Source: Candidatus Poseidoniaceae archaeon (GTDB lineage Archaea; Thermoplasmatota; Poseidoniia; Poseidoniales; Poseidoniaceae). From it: a DNA stretch of 36,709 nt. Shown here in pieces: positions 5,620 to 36,709 of the stretch. Each line of letters starts with the position of its first letter. Position 1 is the first letter of the stretch. The DNA lies in contig JAPKCS010000021.1 in the NCBI GenBank assembly GCA_028822845.1, positions 1 to 36,709 of the forward strand, in the 5' to 3' direction. The position numbers and the translations under genes are program-made. The notes beneath the pieces are model-generated. The model did not search any database. It was not told where the DNA came from and worked only from the letters and a program-made list of their open reading frames with translations.

Positions 5620-8600
5620 TCAGTTTTGCAACCAAGGACGGAAGTGTTGGTCTGCATATGCTCGAGCATAGTCAGCTGGGTAGCCCGAAGCAACCAATTG
5701 TTGCTCATAGGCCAACTGCTCAGCGGTGATCGTAGGGTCTGCCACTGGAAGAGCCGCTGATCCGTACGCCATTTCTTGCTGAGCAAACGCACTGGATTCA
5801 CCTGAGCTTCGACCACGTAGCAAGAGCATGGAAAGCAAAGCGATGATCACAACGCCAGCGATACCGTAGACCACTATGGGGGACATGCCTAGGATGTCTG
5901 AATTGGACTTGACGCCCGTCACATCGGACTGGTCCCCTGGCTCGTCAACACCGTCGGTTTGGCTATCGTCCGTTCCATCGCCGGGTAGGGTCGTGTTGCC
6001 TTCTGGATTTGTCGTGTCGCCGGGAAGGGTTGTGTTGCCTTCTGGATCTGTTGGATTGTCCACTTCACAGCCATCTGCACCAACAGTCACGCCGAGAGGT
6101 GTGTCTGGGCATGCATCAAAGGCATCGTTGACACCGTCATCATCTGCGTCAGTATCGGCTGCAGGGCAGCCATCGCCGCCCTCGCCGTTGGCAACGCCAG
6201 AAACGTCAGGGCATTGATCGCCATCGGTTCCAAGAGGGTTGTCGCCGTATGAATCACCGTCGGTGTCAAGGGCTTGGGATGCATCTTGTGGCCAGTAATC
6301 GTTGAGGTTCGAGACGCCATCTTCGTCGATGTCAGCGCATCCAAACCGATCGATGGTTGATTCACCAAAGGTCGTGGGGCAGTCATCAACCGTTCCATCT
6401 CCCGTATCGGTGGTGTTGAATCCATCTCGGTCGACGTCGTTGGCCCAAAGTTCCTCTTCATTTTGGATGAAGAAAGAATCACCAATGTGGATGTTGTTCT
6501 CTTCATCGCCTTCAGGAAGGTCATCGTTCACGTCGATTGTGATTTGACAGGCATAGGTGCCACTTGTTGTTTCGTCTGGAGTGGTGAAGAAGTCTGAGGC
6601 AGCGCCAAAGGTGAGGTTGCCTTGGACTGAGACGGTTGCGATTGCTTCCACCATGCGTGCCACTTCTGCGCCATTTTCATCGATCAGATCGACGTAAATG
6701 GTGATCACTGTGTTGTTGGCGGGTCCACGAAGGCTGATCAATTCCCATGAAACCTGAACTTCCTCGCCAGAGGTGTGGTTCAGTGGGCAAACAAGTGAAT
6801 CAATGCCAACATCTGCGGGAGCGGCTCCCACGGTGTTGATTGAGAGGTTGTAGTATCCAACACCGCCGGCAGCGTCAATGTTAACGGTGTACTCTTTGGT
6901 TTGGCCTTCGTAATCTGTGCCGAGGGTTTGGAAAATCATGCCGTAGCTCAGGTTGTCGGCAGAAGCTACGAGGTTGCCCGCGGCGTCCTGGAGGGTGAGG
7001 GTGAACGGCAGGCTGGTGTCGGCATCAAAGGTCAGATCGAAGTTCTCGTTGTCGTTTATGCTGAACGTGTAGATATCTGAATCGTCTGTACCTGAGAAGC
7101 AACCTTCGCCGCTTGCCGTAGGGTTTTGTCCAATGTTGATGCCGTTGCCGCCAGGAGCGTCTTGTCCAAGATTGATGTCATTTTGCTGGCCGCAGTTGAA
7201 CGAATCGGGGTCGACGCCCTCCGTTTCAATGATGATCGTGTAGACACCAAGAGAGGCCCATGCTTCGACACTGACATAGAATGTACCACCAGTGCCTGAG
7301 AAGTCGTCTGAATCAATGGTTGTCGCACTTTCATCGCTCGAGCCTGAAAGGAAACCACGGTCGAACCATTCGCCAGCGTTGTCATGCAGGTAAATATCAG
7401 CGTCTTGGTCTGGAGAGTTGACCAAGGTGACGGTGAGGTTGAGTCCAGGTGAAACCGTGAGTTCGAACCAGTCGCTGTCGTCCACATCTTTGTGAACACA
7501 GGCTGTGATGGTCATCGAAACATCTTGGCCGAGGAAATAAGCACCATTTGCGTCCGAACCAGCATCGCTGCCAGACATTGCGTCGTCCTGAGTTGGACAT
7601 GCTGTTGCTTTTTGGTCGACCAGTATTTCGGATATCGGGCTCCCTTCGTTGTCGAATTCACTCTTTTCATCGATGAGTTCATCCGAATCAACCATGACAA
7701 TGAGGGTGTAATTTCCACCTTGTGCACTCGCTGGAACGGTGACACTGAACTGAATCAACTGTGATTCATTGATGTCAAGTGACATGGCGGTTTCATTGCC
7801 CAATTCCAAATCAAGGTCAGACAACTCCCCATCAACAGAGAGCCATGCAGTGAGCATGCTTGACGGAGCCACTAGGGTTCCTGTGTTGTTGATTTCAACT
7901 TCAAAGCTGATCGAGGAACCTGCGCTTGCCGTCAATGGGGCATCGATGCTTTCGATGACCAAATTTGGTTGTGGGGTTGAGTAATTCGTCCAGACGTCGA
8001 GGGTCCAGTTCACGCCAGTACCTGACATTGACACATTGAGGAAGTAGGTTCCTCCGATTCCATCGTAGGACGTCCCGAGGGTCGTAACAAATCCATCAGA
8101 GCCGACATAATCCACCATGGAGTCCGCTGCATCGGTAAGAAGCAAGGTGAAAAACACGCTTGCATTGCTGAGCGTGAGTTGTGCTTCAATCGTGTGGTTT
8201 GATGGAACATCAAAGGAGAGCACGTCATTGCCATCAGCGCCATCGATGCAACCGGTGTAACTGTCGGTGACATTGGAACCCATGGGTGTGGCGGCTGCAG
8301 ATTCATTGTTTGGAGCATCTGCACCAAGCCCCGCATCATCTTGGCCGTTCGGGTGAAGGTCGTCGCACGACTCCCCCACAAACATCACGCCATCTGAAGC
8401 GAGGTTGTTGTTGGTGTCGTTATGTTCCGTGACGTTGCCGTATCCGTCCGCCCAGATGATCCAATAGTATGTTCCATCGGCGAGGTTGTTGGGGAGGGTG
8501 ACAGAGGCTGTGGTCGTACGGCTTGTGTTCTCAGCAAGGGTGTTCTCAGATTGAGAGAGCTGAATCAATTCATCAAACTGATCGAAGGTTTGGTCGGATG

Positions 8601-9369
8601 AAAGAATGAATTGTACTTCGAAGGCACTGGAACTGCTGTTGTAGATGTTCTCAACAACGTATTCAACGCTAACAGTGGCTCCTGCTTGGCCAGTCGATGG
8701 TTCGGTGATTGAAGTGATCACCAAATCTGGGCGTGGGGGGGTGCTGTTTGTCCATGTGCGAAGTGTGTATTGGCCGTCACCTGAATAGGCTCGGACATTG
8801 ATGTAAAAGGTGCTTGCAACGCCTGAGAAACTCGTGCCGCCTGTGCTCACTTTTTCCAACGGGTCGTCGAACTCAGAATAGTCATAATCGTATTCATAAC
8901 CACTTGAGTCCACTAAGTAGAGATCGAAATCAGCGCCGGCTGGCACAACGAGTTCGACATCCACATCTTTACCTGCAGTGGTTGTCACCGTGTACCAATC
9001 ATCCGTATCGGTCGCATCAACGCAACCTTGGACGCCAGTTGCTCCCGAGGACGGATCGGTTCCAAGGCTACGGGAAGTGTTTGAATCTGAACCGGCATCG
9101 CCGTTTGAACCGCCATCTGATTGAAGGCTGGAGGGGCTTGGGCATGCGGCACGTCCACTGGAAGTGCCAACCTTGGGCGTGAACGCGTCAAGCGTCGAGT
9201 AGGTGATCGATTTCGGGCTAACCAATGTGGGGTTAGCGAACGACTCGGCTGGCATTGCCGATTCAATGTTATCGACTTCTTCAGATGAATTGGCGGTAGC
9301 GATTGGCATCATCGGAGCGATGAGGAACAAAAGCGTAAGGCAAAGGGCAGTGCTACGTGCGTTCTGCAT
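5620..9369 (-). CDS. Large secreted, membrane-anchored protein with PPC, CARDB and thrombospondin type 3 domains
   Basis: This 1249-residue protein starts with a typical signal peptide (hydrophobic residues 8-25, cleavage likely after A-T-A near 27). Four PPC-like domains, of the type found C-terminal to secreted peptidases, can be read at about 75-208, 333-460, 588-720 and 720-850; each has a D-x-D-W/V/I-Y/F core and a G-x-Y-x-L/I-x-I/V end strand. CARDB-like adhesion domains lie at about 210-330, 465-585 and 850-970. Residues 970-1105 hold calcium-type thrombospondin type 3 repeats. A spacer with a repeated P-E-G-N-T-T-L-P-G-D unit leads to a membrane helix near 1163-1185 and a cytosolic tail ending in a P-A-D-Y-A-R-A-Y-A-D-Q-H-F-like segment. 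No catalytic domain is seen. It is probably a surface structural or adhesive protein; many N-x-S/T sites suggest glycosylation. Confidence 0.9.
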   Translation of the reverse strand: MQNARSTALCLTLLFLIAPMMPIATANSSEEVDNIESAMPAESFANPTLVSPKSITYSTLDAFTPKVGTSSGRAACPSPSSLQSDGGSNGDAGSDSNTSRSLGTDPSSGATGVQGCVDATDTDDWYTVTTTAGKDVDVELVVPAGADFDLYLVDSSGYEYDYDYSEFDDPLEKVSTGGTSFSGVASTFYINVRAYSGDGQYTLRTWTNSTPPRPDLVITSITEPSTGQAGATVSVEYVVENIYNSSSSAFEVQFILSSDQTFDQFDELIQLSQSENTLAENTSRTTTASVTLPNNLADGTYYWIIWADGYGNVTEHNDTNNNLASDGVMFVGESCDDLHPNGQDDAGLGADAPNNESAAATPMGSNVTDSYTGCIDGADGNDVLSFDVPSNHTIEAQLTLSNASVFFTLLLTDAADSMVDYVGSDGFVTTLGTSYDGIGGTYFLNVSMSGTGVNWTLDVWTNYSTPQPNLVIESIDAPLTASAGSSISFEVEINNTGTLVAPSSMLTAWLSVDGELSDLDLELGNETAMSLDINESQLIQFSVTVPASAQGGNYTLIVMVDSDELIDEKSEFDNEGSPISEILVDQKATACPTQDDAMSGSDAGSDANGAYFLGQDVSMTITACVHKDVDDSDWFELTVSPGLNLTVTLVNSPDQDADIYLHDNAGEWFDRGFLSGSSDESATTIDSDDFSGTGGTFYVSVEAWASLGVYTIIIETEGVDPDSFNCGQQNDINLGQDAPGGNGINIGQNPTASGEGCFSGTDDSDIYTFSINDNENFDLTFDADTSLPFTLTLQDAAGNLVASADNLSYGMIFQTLGTDYEGQTKEYTVNIDAAGGVGYYNLSINTVGAAPADVGIDSLVCPLNHTSGEEVQVSWELISLRGPANNTVITIYVDLIDENGAEVARMVEAIATVSVQGNLTFGAASDFFTTPDETTSGTYACQITIDVNDDLPEGDEENNIHIGDSFFIQNEEELWANDVDRDGFNTTDTGDGTVDDCPTTFGESTIDRFGCADIDEDGVSNLNDYWPQDASQALDTDGDSYGDNPLGTDGDQCPDVSGVANGEGGDGCPAADTDADDDGVNDAFDACPDTPLGVTVGADGCEVDNPTDPEGNTTLPGDTTNPEGNTTLPGDGTDDSQTDGVDEPGDQSDVTGVKSNSDILGMSPIVVYGIAGVVIIALLSMLLLRGRSSGESSAFAQQEMAYGSAALPVADPTITAEQLAYEQQLVASGYPADYARAYADQHFRPWLQN

Positions 9370-32571: not shown

Positions 32572-35500
32572 TCAATCCTCATCGGCGTCGTGTTCTTCTT
32601 CCGATGCCTCATCGTTTGCAGCTTCCGGTAATTCCACTGGTTGCTTGTTGATATGTTCGTCAATGGCTGTATTATGCTCTTCAACCATGTCGTACTCCAA
32701 CATGTTCTCTCGCTTGGAACGCATGCGTTCGAGTCGGAACCCTTGGTGGGTTGCAATCAAGCGCATCTGCAATGCTCGCTCGTACCCGAGGCTGATGTCA
32801 TGAAGTTCTTCTTCTGATTCGGCAACTGAGATTGATTCGGCGAATTCCTCAGTGCGTCGATCTCGAAGCACAAAGGAGAACGCAAGGTAGATGATGCTCG
32901 GCATACCAATGGCCAAGGTCAACAAATCCCAAGAGTCGAGGCCGATGTTCAGCACCGGGATGCTCACAGAGAATGGTTCGACTGGGAAATCAGCACTGCT
33001 GTACGCATCGGTACCGGCAATCAGTTCCTCAACGTCGGGGGTTCCATCGTTGTCATCGTCACCGTCGCCGTTATCACCGCTGTGGTCGCCGTCAAAGTCG
33101 ACCCATTCGGATGCATCTCCGGGGAATTGATCTTCATCGACAATGCCGTCACCATCGTAATCTTGCAACGATTCGAGGGTGATGAATCCATCACGATCGA
33201 GTTCGTAGTTCAGTGGATCGAAGTAGCCATCATTGTCGTAGTCAAGGGTACAATCTCGGAACAACCCTGTCTGCTTATCGGTGCACTTGTCAGGGGCGTC
33301 GCCTTCCATGTTGTCACCGCGGCCATCGCCGTCAGCATCGGACCACTGCGTAGGTTCTTCTGGGAACTCGTCATCCCCATCATCGTAACCATCGTTGTCA
33401 AAGTCATTTGTGCACAACCGCTCTTCCTGGCTTTCAGGATCGAGGCAGACGTCAGCGTTGAGCCCAACTTCGTTGTCGCCCAATCCATCGCCATCGGCGT
33501 CGAACCACTGGAATTCATCATCGGGGAATTCATCCGGATCTGTCCCTGTGGAGTCGTCACCAAATCCATCACCGTCGCTGTCTTGCCATTGAGTCGGATT
33601 GTCAGGCAAGTCGTCGCCACCTTCAACCGCTCCGTTGTCTCCGTGGCCGTCTCCATCGCGGTCTTGCCATTGATCTGGGTCGTTGATGAAGGCGTCTGAA
33701 GTCAAACTGTAGGGTGCATCGCCCCAGCCATCGCCATCAGTGTCGTTCCACTGGTATCGGTCGTCTGGGAATTGATCGCCATTTTCAACATCGCTGTTGT
33801 CACCATAGCCATCGCCATCGCTGTCCAACCACTGTTCGCCATCGGTAGGGAAGGCATCTGGATTTCGCCCACCTACGTTGTCGCCGTAGCCATCTTCATC
33901 AGCATCTTCCCATTGAGTTCCGTCAAGTCGGAAGGCATCTGAAGTGTCGCCATAGCCGTCACCATCAGTGTCAGTCGATTCATTTGCATCGTTCGGGAAC
34001 TCGTCCGCAAGGACGCCAAACGGATTGTCTCCATACCCGTCGCCGTCAGCGTCGCTGCACTGGGTTGGCAAGGTTGGGAATTCGTCACCGTTCACACCGT
34101 CTGTGTTGTCGCCGCAGCCGTCTTGGTCTGCGTCTTCCCACTGGGTGGATTCGTAGGGGTGGCTATCAGCCAATCCAAACGGATGAGCCAGCCACGTCGA
34201 GGAAGCGTCGCTGTGGCCGTCACCATCAGTGTCGAGGCAGCCCAAGCGATCTTCTGTGCTGTTGCCTGCGTCGTAGATGCAACCATCGGGATCATTGGCC
34301 CAGACTTCTTGATTATCGCCATAGCCATCACCGTCAATGTCGCTCCATTGTGAGCCATCATCGGCAAACGCGTCAGCATCAATACCGTTTGCGTTGTCGC
34401 CATAGCCATCACCATCGGTGTCGACCCATTGCGTTGGATTTTCAGGGAACTGGTCAGTGTTGTTGCCATCAGCTGCGTGATCTGTATAGCCGTCGCCGTC
34501 CCAGTCCTCAGGATCGGCTGTCGCGTTGTCTGGCATCGGATCTTCATTGTTGCTGATGCCGTCGCCGTCATCGTCGGCACAGCCAAGTTTGTCGACCCAG
34601 CTATCACCGTATTGATTTGGGCAAGGGTCCGATTGATCGTCGAAGCCATCGTTGTCTCTGTCTATGCACCCATAGAACGTCTCATTGGTGTTGTCTGGGC
34701 CGGCAGCACGTGTAGATTCGCCCGGTTGATTTGGACAAGCGTCTGGGAAGTTTCCGTTGTATTCATCGCCATAGCCGTCGCCGTCGGTATCGAACCACTG
34801 GGTGTTGTCAAGTGGGAAGGCGTCGTAATCATCGGACCAACTGTCACCGTCGCTGTCTTCACAGCCGTGGTAGGGCAACGTGCTGTTTCCAGATTCAAAT
34901 CGACAGCCATCGCCTTCGTAGCCGTTCGAATCATCGCCGTAGCCATCACCGTCCGTGTCCTCCCATTGTGAAGGTTCCAACGGGAAGGCGTCGCCTTCGA
35001 ACCCTGACAAGTTGTCACCGTAGCCGTCATTGTCGGTGTCGGCCCATTGGGTTGACTCTTCGGGGTATCGATCTGTGTTTAGAGATTGATCGAACGCATG
35101 ATCTGGGTAGGTGTCGCCGTCCCAGTCGGTGGCGTCATTGGCCACCTGGTTTGGATAGGGGTCGTACAGGTCACTGATGCCGTCCTGATCGGTGTCGGCG
35201 CATCCAAGCAAATCGACCCAACTGTTTCCGTAAGCGAACGGGCACGGATCTGAATTGTCATCATAGCCATCACCATCTTCATCCGGACAGCCGAACGAAG
35301 TTGTATTGCTCCATTGACCATTGGAATTGTTGTAATGAGTGGACATTGTGGAAGTGCCTGGCGTCGATTGGCAGTAGTCAGGCGTGGTTCCAGTTGAGTT
35401 GTCGCCGTAGCCGTCCTCGTCCATATCGCTCCGTTGAGTTGCGTCTGAGATGAAGGCGTCAGCACCATTGCTCAGACCCCAATTACCGTCGGGGTTCGAA

Positions 35501-36709
35501 ACGCCGTCGCCGTCAGAATCTGGACAACCGTACCTGTCCTGCGTTGAGTTTCCGGCAGAGTAAATGCAAGCATCGCTAAAGTTTCCGAAGTCGTTGTCGC
35601 CGTAACCGTCGCCATCAGAATCAGCCCACTGTGATTCGTCCGATGGGAAAGCGTCGGCGGCGGTGCCGTTTGGATTATCCCCATAACCATCCATGTCAGT
35701 GTCGTTCCATTGAGTTGAATCGTCCGGGAACGCGTCCGTATTGTCGGTGAAATCAAGCGCATTGTCGGGGTAGGAATCATTGTCCCAATCCTCGGTGTCG
35801 TCGGTCGCTGTGTTCGGGTATGGGTCATACAGATCACTGATGCCGTCTTGGTCAGCATCAGGGCATGCAAAAGAATCAACCCAGCTGTTTCCATACGAAT
35901 ACGGGCAGGGGTCGGTGAAGTCATCATAATCGTCACTGTCACTGTCAATGCAACCATACATTGTCATGTTTTCAGGAGACATTGTCGTTGAATTGAAAGT
36001 AATTGTTTTTGTTGAAGAACCGAAATCAAACGGACAAGCATCTGGGTTTGTTCCCGATGAGTTATCGCCATAACCGTCGCCGTCATAATCCGAGTTTTGC
36101 GTCGGGTCATTGACAAAAGAATCATCTAAATCTGCCCAGGAGTCGCCATCCGTGTCAGGGCAACCTTGGTAGAAGCTCATGGAGACGTTGCCTGAAACAT
36201 ACGGGCAGTAGTCTTCGTAATTGTCTCCGTATCCGTCGCCATCGGTATCAGCCCACTCTCCAGAATCTTCAGGGAATATATCCGGGTTATTTCCTGAAGC
36301 ATTATCGCCGTAGCCATCGTTGTCATTATCTTCGTATTGAGTTGAATCGTAAGGGAATGCATCTGCTTCGTTATCGCCGTAGTCATCGCCGTCTGAATCG
36401 GCCCATTCATCCCTGTTATCTGGGAACATATCTGGGTTATTTCCTGAAGCGTTATCGCCGTATCCATCTTCGTCTTCGTCTTCGTGTTGTGTCGAATCAT
36501 ACGGGAACATATCCGCCTCGTTATCACCATGTCCATCGCCATCGGAATCTTCCCATTCATCACCGTTGCCGGGGAACATGTCGGGATCGTTTCCTGTGGT
36601 GTTGTCGCCGTAGCCGTCGTCATCGTTGTCTTCCCATTGGGTTGAATCGTAAGGGAATTGATCGCTTTCATCACCGTAACCGTCGCCGTCTGTATCGGTT
36701 GTTTCGGAA
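32572..36709 (-). CDS. Giant thrombospondin type 3 repeat surface protein, N-terminus outside the window
   Basis: The frame is open from the stop at 32572 to the right edge, at least 1378 residues, without a signal peptide in view, so the true start is beyond the window. Nearly all of it is built from calcium-binding D-x-D-G-D-G-Y-G-D-N repeats alternating with D-A-F-P-x-D-x-T-Q-W-x-D segments. Near the C-terminus lies a single membrane helix (about 32868-32940 in DNA) followed by a cytosolic, charged, helical tail ending in an acidic stretch. Many N-x-S/T sites fit glycosylation. Repeats of this type fold only when loaded with calcium, so the protein should form a long stiff rod on the cell surface. 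Cysteine pairs recur at fixed places. No catalytic domain is visible; a matrix, adhesion or cell-wall-like role is inferred. Confidence 0.9.
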   Translation of the reverse strand, partial: SETTDTDGDGYGDESDQFPYDSTQWEDNDDDGYGDNTTGNDPDMFPGNGDEWEDSDGDGHGDNEADMFPYDSTQHEDEDEDGYGDNASGNNPDMFPDNRDEWADSDGDDYGDNEADAFPYDSTQYEDNDNDGYGDNASGNNPDIFPEDSGEWADTDGDGYGDNYEDYCPYVSGNVSMSFYQGCPDTDGDSWADLDDSFVNDPTQNSDYDGDGYGDNSSGTNPDACPFDFGSSTKTITFNSTTMSPENMTMYGCIDSDSDDYDDFTDPCPYSYGNSWVDSFACPDADQDGISDLYDPYPNTATDDTEDWDNDSYPDNALDFTDNTDAFPDDSTQWNDTDMDGYGDNPNGTAADAFPSDESQWADSDGDGYGDNDFGNFSDACIYSAGNSTQDRYGCPDSDGDGVSNPDGNWGLSNGADAFISDATQRSDMDEDGYGDNSTGTTPDYCQSTPGTSTMSTHYNNSNGQWSNTTSFGCPDEDGDGYDDNSDPCPFAYGNSWVDLLGCADTDQDGISDLYDPYPNQVANDATDWDGDTYPDHAFDQSLNTDRYPEESTQWADTDNDGYGDNLSGFEGDAFPLEPSQWEDTDGDGYGDDSNGYEGDGCRFESGNSTLPYHGCEDSDGDSWSDDYDAFPLDNTQWFDTDGDGYGDEYNGNFPDACPNQPGESTRAAGPDNTNETFYGCIDRDNDGFDDQSDPCPNQYGDSWVDKLGCADDDGDGISNNEDPMPDNATADPEDWDGDGYTDHAADGNNTDQFPENPTQWVDTDGDGYGDNANGIDADAFADDGSQWSDIDGDGYGDNQEVWANDPDGCIYDAGNSTEDRLGCLDTDGDGHSDASSTWLAHPFGLADSHPYESTQWEDADQDGCGDNTDGVNGDEFPTLPTQCSDADGDGYGDNPFGVLADEFPNDANESTDTDGDGYGDTSDAFRLDGTQWEDADEDGYGDNVGGRNPDAFPTDGEQWLDSDGDGYGDNSDVENGDQFPDDRYQWNDTDGDGWGDAPYSLTSDAFINDPDQWQDRDGDGHGDNGAVEGGDDLPDNPTQWQDSDGDGFGDDSTGTDPDEFPDDEFQWFDADGDGLGDNEVGLNADVCLDPESQEERLCTNDFDNDGYDDGDDEFPEEPTQWSDADGDGRGDNMEGDAPDKCTDKQTGLFRDCTLDYDNDGYFDPLNYELDRDGFITLESLQDYDGDGIVDEDQFPGDASEWVDFDGDHSGDNGDGDDDNDGTPDVEELIAGTDAYSSADFPVEPFSVSIPVLNIGLDSWDLLTLAIGMPSIIYLAFSFVLRDRRTEEFAESISVAESEEELHDISLGYERALQMRLIATHQGFRLERMRSKRENMLEYDMVEEHNTAIDEHINKQPVELPEAANDEASEEEHDADED
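34207..34674 (-). repeat. Supermodule copy C of the giant surface protein
   Basis: This is the third copy of a module of about 156 residues that starts with G-C-I-D-R-D-N-D-G and contains S-D-P-C-P, Y-G-D-S-W-V-D-K-L-G-C-A-D, a D-W-D-G-D-x-Y segment and Y-D-A-G-N-S-T-E-D-R-L-G-C, ending in D-G-D-G-H-S-D. Confidence 0.7.
34828..35295 (-). repeat. Supermodule copy B of the giant surface protein
   Basis: The second copy has the same order: G-C-P-D-E-D-G-D-G, S-D-P-C-P, Y-G-N-S-W-V-D-L-L-G-C-A-D-T-D-Q-D-G-I-S-D-L-Y-D, a D-W-D-G-D-T-Y segment and F-E-S-G-N-S-T, ending in D-G-D-S-W-S-D-D. Confidence 0.7.
35495..35958 (-). repeat. Supermodule copy A of the giant surface protein
   Basis: The first copy reads G-C-I-D-S-D-S-D-D, T-D-P-C-P, Y-G-N-S-W-V-D-S-F-A-C-P-D-A-D-Q-D-G-I-S-D-L-Y-D, a D-W-D-N-D-S-Y segment and Y-S-A-G-N-S-T-Q-D-R-Y-G-C. 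The three copies are about 620-660 bases apart, with differing spacer repeats between them. Confidence 0.7.
36280..36709 (-). repeat. Tandem 150-base units at the right end
   Basis: Two full 50-residue units (36430-36579 and 36280-36429) and most of a third (36580-36709) follow head to tail. Each holds an M-F-P-x-x-x-D-E-W half of 23 residues and an F-P-Y-D-S-T-Q half of 27. The DNA is closely similar between the units, including a shared GGGTTATTTCCTGAAGC stretch, so the duplication is recent compared with the other repeats. Confidence 0.75.

Follow-up and report, generated by a model that had tools for sequence, protein, structure and literature searches.

The gene at the right edge of the window (i.e., the whole 36,709-base stretch of DNA analysed here) most likely encodes a stalked adhesin or receptor and not the main coat of the cell. 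The 1378 residues at hand probably form a stalk, a membrane anchor and a tail within a type I membrane protein, the head and signal peptide of which are unassembled; a calcium-stiffened stalk would hold out a ligand-binding head and the tail would provide coupling at the other end. As read from its sequence, the window protein itself carries the repeats, paired cysteines, membrane helix and conserved tail. Export and a head would be expected of the window copy from what is found in its relatives, and we infer that the head binds a ligand and that the tail has a role of its own.

The open reading frame (ORF) extends over positions 32572-36708 of the minus strand and corresponds to the C-terminal part of a protein with repeats like those of thrombospondin type 3 (TSP3). 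No upstream start is present, as the 5' end is open and runs into the end of the contig. The window spans this contig in full (the 1.92-Mb genome is in 57 contigs); thus, the gene was cut by the assembly and the N-terminus of the 1378-residue ORF is missing there. Among the other genes of the window, Pfam identified those for the DNA polymerase II (DP2) large subunit, the DNA primase large subunit and PEP carboxykinase. A second surface-type protein is encoded at 5620-9369 (minus strand); its CARDB domains exceed the Pfam cut-off, a calcium-type motif matches it four times and its C-terminus has a hydrophobic stretch.

The TSP3-like calcium-repeat region covers residues 5-1246 (32971-36696, minus strand) and comprises 42 motif units. 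Motif counting revealed 37 strict DxDxDG motifs, all in the ectodomain, whereas shuffled sequences (n = 1000) contained 2 on average and never more than 8; a looser pattern gave 42 starts in the ectodomain. The acidic calcium-type repeat chain of the original prediction was supported. Spacings between motifs (n = 41) were 27 residues in 14 cases and 22 or 23 in nine, and autocorrelation at 27 residues was 0.233 compared to a maximum of 0.150 in 200 shuffles. The proposed alternation of 23 and 27 residues was therefore recovered as spacing peaks at 22/23 and 27, but clean alternation was confined to the first ~150 residues of the window protein. At 36272-36698 (minus strand), the two spacings (22/23 + 27) form a tandem array of double repeats of ~50 residues, detected by TRF as a 150-nt period in 2.9 copies with 73% matches, in agreement with the 50-residue tandem units that had been described.

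To which repeat family this chain belongs was indicated by comparison to the PDB. When a profile was built from 16 repeat segments of the window protein, the one distinct sequence that it matched at E ≤ 0.01 was that of 5wtl, an OmpA family protein (E = 1.8e-14); the motif and the cysteine-bracketed linker were kept in register, and a single-sequence search found the same entry (E = 5.3e-7). We take 5wtl to be the TSP3 structure of Dai et al. 2017, presumably from Capnocytophaga gingivalis. At E ≤ 1, nothing in Pfam or NCBIfam matched the window protein, which stayed below the Pfam cut-offs for PF02412 and PF18884; when three segments of it were compared to Pfam separately, TSP_3 was the best match at 12.1 of the 25 bits required and two segments were without a match. 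In the C-terminal alignment, 11 of the 16 members matched TSP3_bac (PF18884) at E ≤ 0.01, the window member not among them, and this family was above cut-off in relative L063. Since the profile matched 5wtl but no Pfam cut-off was reached, the repeats are named TSP3-like. Judged by this profile match, they are of the bacterial OmpA kind, and the layered design amounts to stacked repeats of a type already known. An AlphaFold2 model of one large module (see below) had a mean pLDDT of 40 with four alignment rows and without calcium; thus, the rod shape of the chain is taken from known TSP3 proteins, by analogy with which it is plausible. Calcium binding by the repeats would likewise be expected.

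At a larger scale, three cysteine-bearing modules were detected on the minus strand, at residues 225-395 (35524-36036), 446-616 (34861-35373) and 658-824 (34237-34737). The original prediction had a 156-residue supermodule present three times with recurring cysteines. The three copies and the cysteines stand, but the period of the module is 221 and then 207 residues, and 156 is the span from cysteine to cysteine in copies 1 (Cys225-Cys381) and 2 (Cys446-Cys602), the corresponding span in copy 3 being 152. The 26 cysteines of the protein pair off consecutively at distances of 11-28 residues, and these 13 close pairs may form intra-repeat disulphides.

Orthologues of the window protein were compared module by module. 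Over the protein, identity was 83% to the orthologue of genome G168 (1343 aligned residues) and 68% to that of genome G003 (1334 aligned residues). Modules 1, 2 and 3 were 76, 88 and 90% identical to the same-numbered modules of G168 and 78, 69 and 68% identical to those of G003, compared to 55-60% among the three modules of the window protein. As same-numbered modules match best and the 221/207 spacing is identical in all three genomes, the layout is conserved and, by these alignments, predates the three species, with occasional gain or loss of a module. By motif search, the window protein has three modules, as do G168 and G003. A fourth was counted in G021, where two modules are 74% alike, and G121 and G028 gave only two each; these lower counts may reflect assembly collapse or a module overlooked by the pattern. 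As a separate observation, within residues 101-300 (35809-36408, minus strand) the stretch of residues 201-300 was 87% identical to G003 (66% at third codon positions) and 74% to G168 (55%). Elsewhere in the protein the nearest relative is G168, so that the identity is mosaic in this membrane-distal part, which suggests recombination as judged from the sequences.

The C-terminal end departs from the repeat pattern. A single membrane helix was located at residues 1262-1281 (32866-32925, minus strand), with a hydropathy peak of 2.02 over 19 residues and followed by RDRR, and the C-terminal membrane helix that had been predicted was thus confirmed. The remaining 97 residues (1282-1378; 32575-32865, minus strand) form a conserved tail with 11 K/R and 29 D/E, which on the orientation that we consider probable would lie inside the cell. 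AlphaFold2 modelling of helix and tail placed helices at 1259-1295 (which includes the membrane helix), 1299-1314 and 1320-1354, with block pLDDT values mostly of 84-95 and a pTM of 0.46 for the whole model; the final ~25 residues were without a confident helix. The model is consistent with the charged helical tail of the original prediction, its cytosolic side being presumed from the orientation. Across 16 sequences, the tail positions H, L-E-R and R are invariant. The tail of the window member matched no Pfam or NCBIfam family; two NCBIfam names each matched 2 of the 16 members of the C-terminal alignment, with best E-values of 1.4e-4 and 1.6e-3. Foldseek comparison to the PDB gave no fold match below E = 1.4, and any role assigned to the tail is thus a guess.

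The tail is a lineage marker as far as the searches extended. It occurs once in its own genome, and the C-terminal 152 residues match 20 of 59 relatives, own genome included. A C-terminal profile matched all 145 genomes of the order at E ≤ 0.001. Among the matches listed, 43 of these 145 had a best match to the tail-bearing family at E ≤ 3e-48, and the listed matches of the remaining genomes started at 6.6e-16, nearly all covering approximately the first 53 of 217 positions (i.e., repeats). When the tail alone was used, 29 of 292 genomes of the phylum matched at E ≤ 1e-5 and all 29 were within the order, with 243 of the 263 non-matching genomes carrying no listed kinship, so that the number from outside the order is not fixed. 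Comparison of the C-terminal alignment to genome contigs revealed at least 79 loci, of which at least 15 (L053-L067) extend their match beyond residue 140 of the 186-residue query and are labelled Euryarchaeota, Poseidoniales, Poseidoniaceae or Thalassarchaeaceae. By these relatives, the host is an archaeon of the Poseidoniales (Marine Group II, MGII). The others (at least 64, bacteria included) match the first 99 query residues or fewer, mostly repeats. Viral contigs encode repeat matches at seven loci (L132-L138), none extending beyond residues 1-77 of the same query. Five of the tail-bearing loci (L054, L060, L061, L062 and L065) end in an additional stretch of the type GYEW...WYR...W, which is absent from the window protein and is reminiscent of a small WW-like unit. 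In the genome of the window protein, two other TSP3-like proteins (L015 and L156) resemble each other in the aromatic stretch, GLP-GWT--QW-WYG, with which they end after the membrane helix; theirs is another tail type.

The missing N-terminus was approached through relatives. The G003 orthologue has a signal-peptide-like start, followed by 48-residue blades and then by the same stalk. In the alignment to the second G003 segment, residue 1 of the window protein falls on residue 324, and by this measure ~640 residues are missing from the window copy and the full protein would have ~2,000 residues. The start of the G021 orthologue is very similar to that of G003 and leads into a few TSP3-like repeats and then a region without domain match. 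The head region of both orthologues contains a frame break (L038:6849-6893 and L041), due either to assembly error or to a real break; thus, no unbroken orthologue of the same genus was seen. An unbroken ORF of ~2390 residues was found in another genus of the same family (L168), with a signal-peptide-like start, a head and 53 repeat units, and its C-terminal region is 42% identical to that of the window protein over 113 residues. By a simple hydropathy test (a peak after Met), a signal-peptide-like start was detected in 10 of 11 N-termini of relatives, as expected of the surface protein originally predicted. The exception, L065, has no Met before the peak; its N-terminal region is exported, with DUF4886 below cut-off (24.4 of 26.7 bits). 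An intracellular enzymatic N-terminus, the finding named at the outset as speaking against a surface protein, was encountered in none of the relatives' N-termini.

The heads of these relatives differ. In G003, the HVTY motif recurs at residues 92, 140, 188, 236 and 284, with one further blade within the frame break and one beyond. Two Pfam models exceeded their cut-offs in this head: the SBBP beta-propeller repeat, with 25.6 of 20.5 bits (E = 1.2e-5), and Gp5_trimer_C, with 32.4 of 30.9 bits and the better E-value of 1.1e-7. As Gp5_trimer_C outscores SBBP by E-value, the reading of the approximately seven 48-residue blades as a beta-propeller is likely from the sequence, not settled. Within the orthologue group, the propeller match was to G003 alone: nothing in Pfam beyond sub-threshold TSP_3 was matched by the head of G021 or by the short piece of head from G121. 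The ~400-residue head of L168 had no Pfam match. Among eight tail-bearing relatives analyzed out of the 15 loci L053-L067, SBBP was above cut-off in four, RCC1 in one and neither in three. FG-GAP repeats were found in the head of L172, whereas L042, an ORF of 1995 residues with very few calcium motifs, carries RCC1 and Ig-like repeats.

A candidate for the missing half of the window gene was considered at the end of contig C27 (G000:C27; L157), since both genes are truncated by the end of their contig and since its blades look like those at the start of L164. This 1745-residue N-terminal orphan, cut by the contig end, contains blade repeats, five Ig-like (He_PIG) domains and several RCC1 stretches. 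The pairing is disfavoured. The homologue of C27 in genome G059, a single contig, lies in an 11-kb region whose three ORFs of more than 500 residues lack the motif (frames are broken there), and in G003 the signal peptide leads straight into blades and stalk. Further orphans were noted on contigs C42 and C40.

On the reading that we favour, the N-terminal third that is missing would supply a signal peptide, a head and more stalk to a protein of ~2,000 residues in total. The signal peptide would export the protein and the membrane helix would hold it with the tail on the inner side. Calcium of the seawater would fill the TSP3-like repeats and the paired cysteines, as disulphides, would brace them into a stiff stalk that carries the head clear of the membrane. 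The head could then bind a polymer, a particle or another cell, and the helical tail may anchor to, or signal to, a partner inside the cell.

The distribution of orthologues bears on how central such a protein could be. Residues 1-503 of the window protein were used as query, and a match at E ≤ 1e-60 was taken as a strong orthologue. Of the 59 genomes of the genus, 7 have one (the genome of the window among them), as have 4 of the 8 of good quality; none was found in the single-contig genome G059. Draft assemblies lose repeats (G023 keeps merely a contig-end piece), and 7 of 59 is therefore a lower bound. In the parts examined of the own genome, 15 further ORFs carry three or more matches to DxDxDG or DxDGD, some of them contig-end pieces that are possibly parts of one gene. 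The original prediction had proposed this protein as a candidate for the cell's main outer structure, and a large acidic ectodomain with a C-terminal membrane anchor and 23 N-glycosylation-type sequons would suit an S-layer-like coat protein. However, a coat is expected throughout the genus, and with an orthologue in 7 of 59 genomes (even as a lower bound), none in G059, 15 other motif ORFs beside it and no known domain found in Pfam or NCBIfam, this reading was rejected on distribution and appears very unlikely. By the same figures, the protein looks like an optional member of a large set. It could alternatively serve as an extracellular calcium store or as acidic repeat filler of drifting length with no specific ligand, as might be read from an ectodomain of 28% D+E and 1.6% K+R and from module numbers that vary from two to four among orthologues. 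Against this stand the conserved layout, with same-numbered modules matching best and the 221/207 spacing kept in three genomes, and the conservation of the tail, and we regard mere storage or filler as unlikely.

A role as signalling receptor, with binding at the head relayed via stalk and helix to the tail, overlaps the stalked adhesin or receptor that we prefer, in which anchoring or signalling by the tail is left open. The tail is lineage-restricted and conserved, with its invariant H, L-E-R and R positions, and is common to proteins with different heads. It nevertheless has no known signalling or enzymatic domain by Foldseek against the PDB, Pfam or NCBIfam; a long stalk would presumably be a poor transmitter; and the downstream neighbours that G003, G020, G028 and G023 have in common differ from those of the window and of G021. 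Signalling as such is thus possible but rather doubtful. Only tentatively, and with slightly more confidence, may the tail-bearing proteins be viewed as a receptor-like family of the Poseidoniales' own, in which one tail is combined with interchangeable heads (SBBP, RCC1, FG-GAP and others) and stalks of varied length, and contact outside is passed to a dedicated inner partner. The tail, undescribed in Pfam and NCBIfam, is the most interesting part of the protein. A defined architecture with the tail as marker gives a handle for detection in metaproteomes, for prediction of ligands by head type and for a search for the partner of the tail.

Among the planktonic archaea of ocean surface waters, Poseidoniales are the most abundant and have no cultured member, according to the accessible text of PMC6461757 (Rinke et al. 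2018). There, thrombospondin genes are described as widespread in Ca. Poseidoniales, and the case for adhesion is built on genes annotated as archaellum, thrombospondin and flotillin; the thrombospondin point is restated in the available part of PMC8821943. The genes of Rinke et al. are from the same order as the window protein, but architecture, head and tail are not named in that part of the paper. Nor is a stalk and tail architecture of this kind described in the accessible portions of PMC6336850, PMC6864105 and PMC5069720, and no relevant mention was found in PMC9723583. PMC5069720 reports highly expressed disordered MGII proteins, one group of which is annotated as collagen-like cell surface protein, and a paper that names both Poseidoniales and beta-propellers mentions a Poseidoniales domain. 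Neither a paper on repeat adhesins at the cell surface of Poseidoniales nor one on TSP3 repeats in OmpA of Capnocytophaga gingivalis was found in a search with a nameless tail and a coverage mostly outside subscription journals.

Among characterized systems, the TT3R proteins of Nitrosopumilus are likewise marine archaeal and TSP3-like, but belong to another lineage and are likened here by description. As far as the available text of PMC6593220 goes, they rise under peroxide, the function of TT3R in prokaryotes is elusive beyond calcium binding, and a related myxobacterial gene cluster has a role in the surface matrix. The Pfam family TSP3_bac (PF18884) describes repeats of most members of the C-terminal alignment but not those of the window member. 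Closest are the TSP3 repeats of the bacterial OmpA protein 5wtl, which have the same DxDxDG motif and the same cysteine-bracketed linker, DxCP...G...GC. In contrast to that protein, the window protein strings 42 units together in a single chain and carries a membrane helix and a helical tail in the place where an OmpA C-terminal domain, for which it has no Pfam or NCBIfam match, would be sought. Taken together, TSP3 genes of Poseidoniales are already in print as presumed adhesins (PMC6461757, in the sections available), and what appears to be new is a helical tail that has no name in Pfam or NCBIfam, is matched within Poseidoniales alone and is joined to several kinds of head.
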